Source of the DNA: Lachnospira multipara LB2003
GTDB taxonomy: Bacteria; Bacillota; Clostridia; Lachnospirales; Lachnospiraceae
Assembly: GCF_000702205.1 (NCBI RefSeq)
Contig: NZ_KL370871.1
Span: 62,001-126,000 of the forward strand
Length of the DNA stretch: 64,000 nucleotides
Direction of reading: 5' to 3'
Made by a program: the position numbers and the translations under genes. A model generated the notes under the pieces. It saw only the letters and a list, made by a program, of their open reading frames with translations. It was not told the origin of the DNA and did no database searches. Below, one piece after another: positions 48,089 to 56,419 of this stretch; the first letter of the stretch is position 1, and each line of letters opens with the position of its first letter.

Positions 48089-48787
48089 CTAATTAACTAT
48101 AAGTTTATACCCTATTCCTTTAATTGTTTTTAAATATTTAGGCTCTGACGGGTTTTCTTCTATCTTATTTCTAATTCTGCGTATATGCATTATCAAGCTT
48201 TGTTCATTTCCACTTATATCCTCTCCCCATATAGCATCAGCTATTGCATCTTTTGTTAACACTCTATTTTTATTCTCATATAGTTTACTCAAAATTTCTC
48301 TTTCCATGGCTGTCAGGTTTACACTTTTATCATTATTTATTACAACATTTTGTGAAAAATCGATTATTACATCACCCAAAATACATTTTTGTGTTTCCTG
48401 TAACTTTATTTTATAGCTTCTTCTTAATATTGCATTTATTCTAAACACTAATTCTTTCATAATAAATGGCTTAGTTATATAATCATCTGCACCAAGTCCT
48501 AAACCAATTAATTTATCAACATCTTCATCCTTTGCAGTTAAAAAGATAACTGGTATATCTGAAGAACTTCTGACATATTTTAATAATTCATATCCATCTC
48601 CATCAGGTAACATAATATCTAAAACAAGTATATGTGGTTTTTCTTTTAAAAATGTTTTTTTGGCTTCTTCTATTGTAGAAGTTTTAAAAATACGATAAAA
48701 CCCTTCTTGTTTTAAACCATTCTCTATATGATTTAATATTTCATTCTCATCATCTAATAATAATATTTTATACTCCCTTATATTCAT
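48089..48787 (-). CDS. OmpR-family response regulator
   Basis: 232 residues from the ATG at 48787, which follows AAGGAGG. The receiver has LLDDENE, the phospho-acceptor Asp in ILVLDIMLPDGDG, VIFLTAK and YITKPF. The winged helix has VNLTAMEREILSKLYENKNRV, IWGEDISGNEQSLIMHIRRIRNKI and IKGIGYKL. It is intact, unlike the regulator at the left edge of the window. It is paired with the kinase downstream and probably binds the GTTAG direct repeats before the ABC exporter. Confidence 0.93.
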   Translation of the reverse strand: MNIREYKILLLDDENEILNHIENGLKQEGFYRIFKTSTIEEAKKTFLKEKPHILVLDIMLPDGDGYELLKYVRSSSDIPVIFLTAKDEDVDKLIGLGLGADDYITKPFIMKELVFRINAILRRSYKIKLQETQKCILGDVIIDFSQNVVINNDKSVNLTAMEREILSKLYENKNRVLTKDAIADAIWGEDISGNEQSLIMHIRRIRNKIEENPSEPKYLKTIKGIGYKLIVN

Positions 48788-48889
48788 GTAACCCTCCTTT
48801 TGTCTATATTTTATAATTAAATTCACTTCTTTTAAAGTCTTAAAATCAAAAAATAAAAGCCCTAAAGACTAGAATTTGCGCGTTTCTAC

Positions 48890-49021
48890 GAGCGGTGCAA
48901 GGATGTACCGAATTGGCTGTCGGGAGCTTGCTCACGGACAGACATATTCGTGTGCAGACTTATAGTGCGACAGCGCGACATGAGCATGAAGCGTAGCAGA
49001 ATGCGAATAAAGTCACCGCTC
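48890..49021. ncRNA. Candidate structured RNA/DNA in module X (copy A)
   Basis: GAGCGGTG (48890-48897) pairs with CACCGCTC (49014-49021), enclosing 116 bases. Inside are an arm at 48917-48941 (CTGTC/GACAG with GAGC/GCTC), an arm closed by TATTCG (48945-48950) and CGAATA (49004-49009), and an alternative hairpin GGTGCA/TGTACC. Between the two copies the differences in the stems are G-U compatible (TGTACC versus TGCACC; GAGC versus GGGC), which suggests that the structure is kept. Either strand could be the functional one. Transcription is not shown. Confidence 0.5.
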
Positions 49022-49360
49022 AACAAATCTCAATTTACTAATTTAACTGTCTTCAATTATACAGAATTCTGTTGAATGTCAATTAAAATTGACCCACAGA
49101 GGGTGCAAAATAAAAGACTACTTAGGTTCATTTTCTGAGCCTATAGGTTGCTGGCCAGATTGCCCAAATCAAGGAAAAAGTCTGGAAAAAGATTAGATTT
49201 CCGGTCTTGGAAAAGTTCAATATTTTTACAGCTAATCCAAACCACAAAAAAAAGCCCCAAAAAGGCAACAAATTCTTGCCTTTTCGGTGTTTTATAAAAC
49301 TAGAATTGCCTATATGCGTAAAATAAAATTGAAAAAGATGAAAAACACAGAAGAAATCTT

Positions 49361-49437
49361 GAGATTTGTTGCCCTACAGGGGAATTATTCCTTAATATGG
49401 GCAACTACGAATCTTCATATGGGCAACCATAAATCTC
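49361..49437. repeat. Long-stem structure with repeated GGGCAAC in module Y
   Basis: GAGATTTGTTGCCC (49361-49374) pairs with GGGCAACCATAAATCTC (49421-49437) apart from a three-base bulge. A second GGGCAAC at 49399-49405 competes for the same arm. Inside lie CCCTACAGGGG and GGAATTATTCC hairpins. GAGATTTGTTG is also complementary to CAACAAATCTC at the end of module X (49021-49031). A terminator-like hairpin on the minus strand (49260-49284, then GGGGC and eight T) lies elsewhere in Y. Confidence 0.5.
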
Positions 49438-49573
49438 TATAATCCACGAATCTCTATAATCTCTTTTACATGATCATTTATCTTTTCCTCTCTTATTTTC
49501 AATTTGTTTTCTTGCTCTCTGTTTTGAGCTTGAAGTCATTATCGACAAATCTGAATTTATCTAATCTTTAGGG

Positions 49574-49612
49574 CTAATAATTATATTCAAATCTAGGGAA
49601 TAACACTCCATT
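49574..49612 (-). pseudogene. 3' remnant of a hemerythrin gene
   Basis: The minus strand reads NGVLFPRFEYNY and stop. The first nine residues equal the end of the hemerythrin encoded at 51021-51560 (NGVLFPRFE). It begins one base after the GNAT stop codon and runs directly into the (split) copy of the same terminator. This is a duplicated gene tail, not a gene of its own. Confidence 0.65.
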
Positions 49613-50706: not shown

Positions 50707-50842
50707 AATCTTTCTCTCCTTTAAATTGACTAATCCACATAACTAACTCTTGAAAAACTGTTGCGTTAATTTCATAATAAACAAAATATTTCTCCTTTGT
50801 CAAAGCAATTCAAAAATTATTTTAAATTGCAAACATAAAAAA

Positions 50843-50877
50843 GCCCTAAAGACTAGAATTTATCTAATCTTTAGGGC
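50843..50877 (-). terminator. Intact terminator of the hemerythrin gene
   Basis: GCCCTAAAGA (50843-50852) pairs with TCTTTAGGGC (50868-50877), and TTTTTT follows on the minus strand. It is the uninterrupted version of the hairpin that copy A of the large repeat splits. Confidence 0.8.
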
Positions 50878-50888
50878 TAATAGTTTTA

Positions 50889-51047
50889 GTAAAGCGGGCA
50901 TTCGGAATCCGCTTCGCTACTTCCTCATGAACGCAGTGGCACTTTGTGCCACCTGTCAGAAGGGGCTTTAACCCCTTCTGACACTAGTAAGCTTTATACC
51001 CCCGCTTAAAGCTTACGCTTTTAAAGCAGGGGATTGCTTACACTGCG
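50889..51047. repeat. 159-bp four-hairpin module inserted in the hemerythrin 3' end
   Basis: Compared with the duplicated tail at 49574-49612, extra sequence begins after GGGCTAATAGTTTTA and ends before TTCAAATCTAGGG. It is much more GC-rich than its surroundings and folds into four successive hairpins: AAGCGG/CCGCTT, GTGGCAC-TTT-GTGCCAC, GTCAGAAGGGG/CCCCTTCTGAC, and GTAAGC/GCTTAC enclosing CCCC/GGGG. It encodes nothing except the last codons of the hemerythrin. It resembles REP-like or other small palindromic repeats. No second copy is visible in the window. Confidence 0.65.
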
Positions 51048-51560
51048 TTCAAATCTAGGGAATAGGACTCCATTTTCCTTAGACTCATGCTCTGAAATAT
51101 CCGCAAATAACTCTTGCATCTTTCTGTAAATAAAAGATAAATTGTCATCTTCCTTCTTATAGCTAAAGTTATCTGATAACTTAGTCATTTTCACAATTCG
51201 TTCTTCCGCTTTTCCATGCTCATTTTCTAAATCCGATATCTTAAGTAAAAGTTCCTTATTATCTACATTTGACATAATCATCATAGGAAAAACCTCAAAT
51301 TCTTCCTTTTCAAAATGTCTTTTTAATTCAAAAGTCATTCTTTTAAACTCGCCAAAAGTTTCTGATATTTTGTCATCAAGTTGAGGATTTCTTTTTTCAT
51401 AATTCTTTATATCTTCAATTATAAAATCCATTAATTCCAATTCTTTTTTGTGATGCTTTGTTCTTATATCATAAATCAACTCTGAAACTGACATGTTAGA
51501 CACTAATGCTTCTTTATCTACTCTTTTCTTCAAATCCTCTATCATTTCCTTACTAATCAT
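51021..51560 (-). CDS. Hemerythrin-domain protein with altered C-terminus
   Basis: 179 residues of helical hemerythrin fold. Likely di-iron ligands are His in IRTKHHKKE, HFEKEEFEVFP, ENEHGKAEE and SEHESKENGVLFPRFE. Bacterial members bind oxygen or iron, or help repair iron-sulfur clusters under oxidative and nitrosative stress. The last residues, RSVSNPLL, and the stop codon come from the inserted hairpin module; a sister gene tail in the window ends in YNY instead. The core is intact, so it is probably active. It is a single gene with the terminator at 50843 downstream. Confidence 0.87.
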   Translation of the reverse strand: MISKEMIEDLKKRVDKEALVSNMSVSELIYDIRTKHHKKELELMDFIIEDIKNYEKRNPQLDDKISETFGEFKRMTFELKRHFEKEEFEVFPMMIMSNVDNKELLLKISDLENEHGKAEERIVKMTKLSDNFSYKKEDDNLSFIYRKMQELFADISEHESKENGVLFPRFERSVSNPLL

Positions 51561-55669: not shown

Positions 55670-55758
55670 ACTCTTATATCAATAATTTCACCATTAACCC
55701 TTACTTCTCTTTTGTCATTATTTATACTTATTTCCTCAAATGTAAGTTCCTTTATTAT
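55670..55758 (-). pseudogene. Response regulator fragment fused by deletion to the kinase remnant
   Basis: The minus strand reads KELTFEEISINNDKREVRVNG and EIIDI, typical of the start of an OmpR-type DNA-binding domain. The frame then shifts into the kinase remnant, so a deletion removed the rest of the regulator and most of the kinase. Its 5' side is bounded by module Y of the large repeat. Confidence 0.6.
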
Positions 55759-56361
55759 GTTCATTTTCTGAACCTATAGGTTGCTGGCCGGATTGCCCAA
55801 ATCAAGGAAAAAGTCTGGAAAAAGATTAGATTTCCGGTCTTGGGAAAGTTCAATATTTTTACAGCTAATCCAAACCACACAAAAAAGCTCCAAAAAGGCA
55901 ACAAATTCTTGTCTTTTCGGTGTTTTATAAAACTAGAATTGCCTATATGCGTAAAATAAGATTGAAAAAGATGAAAAGCAAAGAAGAAATCTTGAGATTT
56001 GTTGCCCTACAGGGGAATTATTCCTTAATATGGGCAACTACGAATCTTCATATGGGCAACCATAAATCTCTATAATCTCTTTTACATGATCATTTATCTT
56101 TTCCTCTCTTATTTTCAACTTGTTTTCTTGCTCTCTGTTTTGAGCTTGAAGTCATTATCGACAAATCTAAATTTGCGCGTTTCTACGAGCGGTGCAAGGA
56201 TGCACCGAATTGGCTGTCGGGGGCTTGCTCACGGACAGACATATTCGTGTGCAGACTTATAGTGCGACAGCGCGACATGAGCATGAAGCGTAGCAGAATG
56301 CGAATACAGTCACCGCTCAACAAATCTCAATTTACTAATTTACCTGTCTTCAATTATACCG
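55759..56361. mobile_element. Non-coding structured repeat, copy B (module Y then module X)
   Basis: Module Y (55759-56168, 410 bp) is joined through AAATTT (56169-56174) to module X (56175 to about 56361). Compared with copy A the order is reversed, the spacer is missing, and Y lacks a 17-base tandem repetition (AATCTCTATAATC plus CACG). The structured core of X is at 56187-56318. The Y-to-X junction here carries a hexamer in the place where copy A has its flanking GAATTT. This fits a unit copied through a circular or head-to-tail form. It separates a two-component remnant from the truncated Na/Pi gene. Confidence 0.7.
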
Positions 56362-56419
56362 AATCCTCATCAACAATTAAATATCGTTGCAATAATTCCT
56401 CATACTCTTTATTAAACAT
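56354..56419 (-). pseudogene. 21-codon gene start cut by module X
   Basis: AGGAG is followed by ATG (56417-56419) and MFNKEYEELLQRYLIVDEDSV, after which the stop codon comes from module X. A proper ribosome site with such a short product suggests the beginning of a longer gene whose remainder was replaced by the repeat. The family cannot be recognised from so little. Confidence 0.4.

Follow-up and report, generated by a model that had tools for sequence, protein, structure and literature searches.

The window, the whole 64,000-nucleotide stretch of Lachnospira multipara LB2003 analysed here (contig NZ_KL370871.1, positions 62,001 to 126,000), carries two nearly identical copies of a small folded element, module X, together with a third, divergent member. 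Stretches 48873-49070 and 56170-56367, which hold copies A and B, are 97% identical; two further copies on contig C1 of the same genome are 94 and 95% identical, and over the 145-nt element all four are 96.6-99.3% alike. The divergent member, not mentioned in the initial annotation, lies on the minus strand at 50892-51017 (model R1, 39.4 bits, E 6.5e-8). Within the 281,000 bases of the genome that were searched, window included, two more divergent members were found on C1, at 72739-72864 (36.1 bits) and 96117-96242 (36.4 bits). These last two (L060:2739-2864 and L061:6117-6242) are 97% alike and inverted. Coordinates of the features are collected in Table 1.

Table 1 Module X, its companions and its insertion sites, in window coordinates
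Feature	Position	Strand	Evidence or remark
Target terminator-like hairpin AGCCCTAAAGACTAGAATTT	left half 48858..48877, right half 49559-49575	+	
6-bp direct repeat GAATTT, left copy at the insertion point	48872..48877	+	6-nt flank overlap in G002
Module X copy A: 5' motif TGCGCGTTTCTAC and folded core	48877..49021	+	R1 match 145.9 bits, E 1.3e-35 (copy is a member of the R1 model's own alignment)
681-bp unit (X, promoter-like piece, D1, D4), missing from the G002 empty site	48878..49558	.	
P1 closing stem, 5' strand GAGCGGTG	48890..48897	+	minimum-energy fold; pair counts
P2 long arm, fast-changing stem; tip GGGAGCTTGCTCAC at 48922-48935	48899..48961	+	own-arm pairing test
P3 hairpin GTGC-GACA-GCGC	48965..48976	+	98.5% of cells paired, double changes in 4/4 pairs (model-aligned set A4)
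P4 arm with tandem GA/GA internal loop	48979..49009	+	folding of copies; pair counts
P1 closing stem, 3' strand CACCGCTC	49014..49021	+	minimum-energy fold
Promoter-like TTGACA-15 nt-TATAAT beside X, facing response-regulator-like ORF 48089-48826	49056..49082	-	read from sequence
Module D1 next to copy A, with terminator-like hairpin 49254-49287 inside	49122..49421	.	97% identical to 55755-56054; terminator scan
Module D4 next to copy A	49444..49558	.	97% identical to 56060-56174
Second GAATTT, end of the 681-bp unit	49553-49558		
Third, divergent member: 159-bp insertion relative to G007	50889..51047	-	
Module D1 of copy B	55755..56054	.	repeat comparison
Promoter-like (sigma-70-like, 10/12) TTCATA-18-TATAAT, about 100 nt upstream of copy B, same strand	56047..56076	+	
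Module D4 of copy B	56060..56174	.	repeat comparison
Module X copy B, with D1-D4 ahead of X	56174..56318	+	R1 match 141.5 bits (copy is a member of the R1 model's own alignment)

On the plus strand, the minimum-energy fold of copy A consists of the 8-bp stem GAGCGGTG/CACCGCTC and three inner arms (-50.6 kcal/mol), and none of 200 shuffles was as good (z -4.10). The minus strand reaches -38.1 kcal/mol (z -1.60), matched by 12 of 200 shuffles. Folded with DNA parameters, copy A gives a z of -2.59 (2 of 200 shuffles as good) and a minimum-energy shape that differs from the consensus in P3 and P4. The folded, repeated module described in the initial annotation is thus real, and the closing stem of 8 bp is recovered as drawn, with three inner arms. 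Three positions differ between copies A and B over the 145 nt: two of them (48906 T/C and 48925 A/G) agree with the claim that the stem substitutions are G-U compatible, and the third (49010 A/C) lies in a junction. The core is also GC-richer than its surroundings, as had been said (G+C 53%; flanks 25% and 33%, whole window 33%). The proposed switch, in which GGTG would pair with two partners, is not conserved: among the 85 of 95 family copies used for the test, GGTGC, which ends the P1 5' strand, has a local second partner in the form of an exact Watson-Crick 5-mer in six only. All six belong to one near-identical lineage, and copy A joins them only if a G-U pair is allowed. We therefore set aside a conserved riboswitch-like switch based on this pairing.

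Both copies are accompanied by modules D1 and D4, but in a permuted order: X, D1, D4 at copy A and D1, D4, X at copy B. Such a permutation would be natural for a circular intermediate, yet it is no proof of one. The promoter-like piece beside copy A has a 15-nt spacer, outside the 16-18 range of our promoter scanner; on its own strand, copy A is preceded by a 9/12 sigma-70-like site at 48733-48761. Words resembling the promoter-like site of copy B precede one of the two C1 copies, and neither copy A nor the other C1 copy. The genes flanking copies A and B are minus-strand ORFs, so both copies lie antisense to their neighbours on either side. Read on the minus strand, D4 (49444-49558 and 56060-56174) could encode a short conserved peptide, SKQRARKQIENKRGKDK-like, that is also found as the C-terminus of ORF L008:10146-10889. 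At locus L008 and at about 29-97 kb of C1, accessory-looking genes (acetyltransferase, metallo-hydrolase, methyltransferase and transporter, as judged from their sequences) are parted by D4/D1 modules in a cassette-array-like manner, the modules bearing a terminator and a TTGACA-15-TATAAT piece.

Empty sites were found in two sister genomes. In one of the same genus (G002), a first match ends at window position 48877 (98%) and a second starts at 49553 (95%), with 6 nt of G002 shared by both. Hairpin AGCCCTAAAGACTAGAATTTATCTAATCTTTAGGGCT is intact in G002, and in the window its loop holds the 681-bp unit between two copies of GAATTT; the intact hairpin argues against a secondary deletion in G002 in place of an insertion in the window genome. 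At the third member, the matches of G007 run to 50888 and from 51048, on adjacent bases of that genome (93% over 91 nt and 80% over 2,015 nt). No target duplication accompanies this insertion, against the 6-bp repeat at that of copy A. ORF 51021-51560 stops 4 nt ahead of the start of the R1 match at 50892-51017; its final codons fall within the 159-bp insert and were seemingly supplied by the third member. A hairpin like the target hairpin of copy A stands nearby, around 50840-50878. Judged from these alignments, with an empty site facing the element at two places, the X element moves. Phage, plasmid and viral-contig collections contained no match to a 753-bp stretch or to the core pattern.

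The element is widespread. Of 61 genomes searched at the DNA level, the present one among them, 14 gave matches, with five in a genome of the same family (G028) and seven partial ones in a genome of the window's genus (G014). With a covariance model trained on 16 copies, 224 of the 397 genomes searched in the bacterial family gave a match at E <= 0.001, where E-values are rough and copy numbers are lower bounds, at most eight candidates being scored per genome. In a named sequence collection the core pattern occurs in 104 stretches. The 80 of these whose titles were listed bear the name Lachnospiraceae, one of five genera of Lachnospiraceae (Agathobacter, Acetatifactor, Lachnospira, Mediterraneibacter and Hominifimenecus) or Clostridia, Clostridiales, Clostridium or Eubacterium. 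A contig of Agathobacter ruminis JK623 is among the carriers of the pattern. This is probably an X-element family of Lachnospiraceae. When eleven divergent copies were folded, nine shared a common architecture, with P2 stems unlike in sequence; those of G012 and G017 were different. What recurs is the motif preceding P1, a P2 tip with a short loop (frequently GGGAGCTTGCTCAC), a P3 hairpin of the GACA type and tandem GA mismatches in the P4 arm. Some copies (L125, L142, L149 and L023) are followed by additional tandem P3-P4 (or P2) units, as though the element grew or decayed by tandem duplication.

From 100 model matches in the 85 loci searched, two duplicate listings and three partial matches were removed, leaving 95 copies. 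When 16 copies were aligned with MAFFT without constraint, pairing was kept in 94.4% of 445 cells, and compensatory base-pair changes occur at 9 of 28 pairs. The covariation score of 0.272 exceeds those of slid controls (up to 0.053) and shuffles (up to 0.103); one of the five measures, that of further pair types (18), is not above shuffles (17.8). With 98 distinct model-aligned rows, an alignment that leans towards the model used to build it, 94.8% of 2,614 cells pair, double changes are seen at 26 of 28 pairs and the score rises to 0.496, with controls at 0.071 or less. The fast-changing P2 was treated separately, on 79 distinct arms from 80 of the 95 copies. Its own two arms pair at a mean of -18.9 kcal/mol, compared to -6.0 for arms taken from other copies, and the own partner ranks in the top 10% for 78 of the 79. 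The conserved fold of the X family is real, and the covariation test proposed alongside the initial annotation is passed. The given strand folds better than its complement in 93 of 95 copies, with RNA and DNA parameters alike: this bias says that one strand matters, and does not tell which type of molecule, RNA or DNA, is folded.

RNAs under selection accept G-U far more readily than A-C, and the two can be counted. In 25 tRNAs from the examined loci, GU:AC is 30:0 with a G-U share of 6.1%; in 30 SRP RNAs it is 214:1 with a share of 22.6%. The test detects the strand, because these ratios collapse on the wrong one (0:21 for tRNA, 7:13 for SRP RNA). X was counted over its modelled pairs in 68 representatives (clustering at 85% identity), which gave 35:20 (p 0.058) and a G-U share of 2.0%. 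Split by part, it amounts to 14:3 in P1, 6:1 in P3, 9:9 in P4, 3:4 in the tip and 3:3 in the P2 base. The P2 arm, at 55:15 (p 1.7e-6), falls between the rest of X and the RNA controls. Put through the control procedure, thirty of the 95 X copies gave 37:21 as given and 50:32 when reverse-complemented, and the consensus fold is nearly equal on both (-30.9 and -28.9, respectively). REP hairpins of E. coli K-12 gave 5:3 (36 distinct strings) and a G-U share of 1.7% (42 distinct places), in a control limited to 300 kb, 8 informative cells and a provisional consensus. Other mismatches outnumber both classes in X (72 such cells in the 68 representatives; 10.2% unpaired cells in the 30 copies), so misalignment may have contributed to the A-C count, and the argument stands more firmly on the low G-U share. 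The pairing pattern of X is unlike that of the two RNA controls. A structured RNA gene would be expected to show compensatory changes, as X does, and G-U far above A-C, which X, at 35:20, does not. Of the claim that module X is a conserved structured RNA, then, the conserved fold stands on covariation, while the RNA part is called into question by the missing or weak wobble, the antisense position of copies A and B and the mobility of the DNA. A mixed RNA and DNA history of X is possible.

At its own cut-offs, Rfam finds nothing in the window. The nearest family is Clostridiales-1 (RF01699), which X matches at 18.5 bits (E 0.061; gathering cut-off 48). Two X relatives reach 43.9 and 40.9 bits, both below 48, and among 20 loci with X-family members none attains the cut-off and two are sub-threshold; conversely, the X model scores 25.7 bits at best on 30 Clostridiales-1 loci. 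Both have a closing stem, a long arm with a GCUUGC-type tip and, nearly letter for letter, a UGAGC...GCGAAUG tandem-GA arm. They differ in the remaining arms: the GA arm is third in Clostridiales-1 and is followed by a GGAUUG...CAAUCC arm, whereas X lacks the latter and has an additional GACA hairpin third, before its GA arm. Like X, Clostridiales-1 is devoid of the wobble signature: 27 copies from the 30 loci give 15:9 on the given strand and 15:21 on the reverse complement. By these model comparisons we take it to be a distant structural relative of X. It was present in 83 of 150 genomes of the same bacterial family, with up to 17 scored matches each. Weinberg et al. 2010 (PMC2864571) class Clostridiales-1 as probably RNA and probably not cis-regulatory. 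Among the listings returned by a literature search on Clostridiales-1/RF01699 and Lachnospiraceae mobile repeats, none pointed to mobility.

The fold of X is conserved, the element is dispersed, and at two places it is precisely inserted with the empty site kept in a sister species. We tentatively read X as a member of a group of mobile, non-coding DNA elements of small size (about 150-170 bp), whose functional fold is a single DNA strand and not a transcript, and give this a little less than an even chance. One strand of the element would fold into a four-way junction, and this folded single strand would be the shape that a trans-acting recombinase or transposase probably recognises; both the single-stranded DNA form and its recognition by such an enzyme are what we infer from the observations above. 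In this genome X shares the 681-bp unit with promoter-like and terminator modules, within the loop of a terminator-like hairpin, and the promoter-like piece of the unit would point at a two-component/ABC gene cluster. Counted in favour of this reading are the two empty sites, the dispersal, the pairing pattern and the 14 module-X-like copies, none of which has a P2 T-run of five or more. Counted against it are G-U still above A-C in the core and in P2, the 10/12 promoter-like site facing copy B on the X strand, a DNA fold that, for copy A by itself, beats shuffles only moderately, and target repeats of unequal length, 6 bp at one insertion and 0 bp at the other. To these we add the lack of any match in the phage, plasmid and viral-contig collections, the small size of the REP control and the lack of an integron integrase over cut-off and of any Y1 transposase match.

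Known elements offer partial parallels. REP/BIME sequences of E. coli are likewise non-coding, dispersed, folded and extragenic, with a G-U share of about 2%; they are single hairpins, where X forms a four-way junction some 150 nt long. A Y1 transposase (PF01797) goes with REPs; it had no match in this genome, with 22 of the 46 genomes searched being positive. MITEs and PATE-type non-autonomous insertion sequences resemble X as small non-coding mobile units with empty sites. By eye, X has no clear terminal inverted repeats, and the constant target duplication of MITEs is not found either, with 6 bp at copy A and 0 bp at the third member.

Two rivals place the function of X in a transcript. In the first, which we regard as a serious but somewhat unlikely alternative, X is a genuine structured non-coding RNA related to Clostridiales-1 as a sister class; it would be carried about by mobile DNA but do its work as RNA. 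Such an RNA would account for the strong covariation and the constant better-folding strand, for the RNA-like CUUG-type tip, GACA loop and tandem GA motifs, and for the GU:AC ratios in P2, P1 and P3; the 10/12 site before copy B, which has a similar counterpart at one of the two C1 copies, could serve as its promoter. It agrees poorly with the G-U share of 2.0% and with the counts in P4, tip and P2 base when set beside 30:0 and 214:1 in the controls. Nor does it fit the 9/12 site that is all copy A has on its own strand. Of 92 copies (the three in the window being omitted), 56 share their strand with the upstream neighbour, 34 have it on the opposite strand and two lack one; both neighbours are opposite in 17, seven of them module-X-like. 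A same-strand neighbour is present at just one of the 12 non-window copies that are module-X-like and absent at the other 11, which also counts against an RNA. The other rival, which we think unlikely, makes X mainly a gene-end (3' UTR) structure, where P2 terminates the upstream gene and the remainder protects the end of the transcript. Indeed, 23 copies begin within 15 nt of a same-strand upstream stop codon. In 86 of the 95 copies examined for it, a P2 T-run of five or more is present in 19 of these 23, in none of the 14 module-X-like copies and in 11 of 49 others, the first two sets being hand-picked; from its sequence, P2 of the gene-end members looks like an intrinsic terminator. But termination at P2 would leave P3, P4 and the P1 3' strand untranscribed with the gene, so this reading fails to explain their covariation, and a working terminator there would point to DNA again. 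Module X itself lacks the T-run and is antisense to its neighbours. The gene ends of rubrerythrin and S9 recur among X carriers, yet the model finds X at only 4 of 30 rubrerythrin and 1 of 30 S9 loci, although these were the best matches to the carriers' proteins and not a random sample. On these figures we rejected rubrerythrin and S9 as vertical 3' UTR partners of X. Remnants of X can be discerned at some other rubrerythrin and S9 loci.

A further rival keeps X as DNA but makes it an attC-like recombination site, where X and the modules and genes around it would be cassettes exchanged at ACAAAYYNRRAKTT-like sites by a tyrosine recombinase via circular intermediates; we give it a small probability. 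Integron attC sites fold from the bottom strand, are placed between short accessory genes and have a variable arm, with core sites GTTRRRY / RYYYAAC. X is similar in its folded strand, which is the non-coding one, in its place between genes and in its variable arm. By inspection, the own-genome copies seem to lack the GTTRRRY core and carry GACAAAT or AACAAAT; some relatives carry GTTAAAT or ATTTAAC. Cassette exchange would suit the permuted order of X, D1 and D4 between copies A and B. It would also suit a 12-nt motif, AAAYYNNRADTT, which flanks 9 of 95 copies on both sides, all nine of the module-X lineage, and five on one side, compared to 26 of 16,800 random windows, the motif being derived from the same copies in which it was counted. 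It is missing from both sides of the other 81. A 14-nt form of it clusters on C1, where 9 of 11 matches between 10 and 130 kb fall at 73-85 kb (two being one palindromic place). The enzyme speaks against this rival. Of seven matches to the integron integrase profile (TIGR02249) in this genome, the best scores 39.1 where the cut-off is 265 bits, and no tyrosine recombinase (eight matches in all) was seen less than 100 kb from any of the four X copies. Tyrosine recombinases near D1-like repeats on C8 and C10 were dropped as candidates, the repeats being only 70-71% alike; the family model found no member in 20 kb and 17 kb around them.

Beyond this genome, the reading of X as mobile DNA folded from one strand could be extended to a large class of four-way junctions, mostly absent from Rfam and including the Clostridiales-1 'sRNA'. 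The class would be single-strand-folding mobile DNA and not RNA, and circular cassettes moved by a recombinase would scatter promoters and terminators and build integron-like arrays in Gram-positive gut bacteria that have no integron integrase. This generalisation is speculative, and we hold it to be doubtful. If it were true, strong covariation by itself would be no proof of RNA, and a catalogued RNA family with its wider sister family would turn out to be mobile DNA. A common vehicle for promoters and terminators in gut bacteria would have been identified as well, raising the question of the enzyme that moves it. Counting wobble pairs against mismatches offers a cheap test for other repeated, intergenic 'orphan' RNA families.

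Several of the Clostridiales-1 loci (L083-L112) have a nearby hairpin bearing the same GGGTCAAAAG words, suggesting, from the letters, a mobile element with repeats at both ends. Across the X family, 125 of 161 distinct neighbour ORFs were scanned, and Phage_integrase matches occur in five of these 125. A tyrosine recombinase is the next neighbour at L139, L154 and L174 by a named match, and at L021 and L173 by similarity. Type I restriction-modification genes also recur next to the element: four neighbour ORFs of one cluster (at L128, L147, L171 and L179) fit the four N6_Mtase matches, and the L147 ORF, scanned singly, is hsdM-like.
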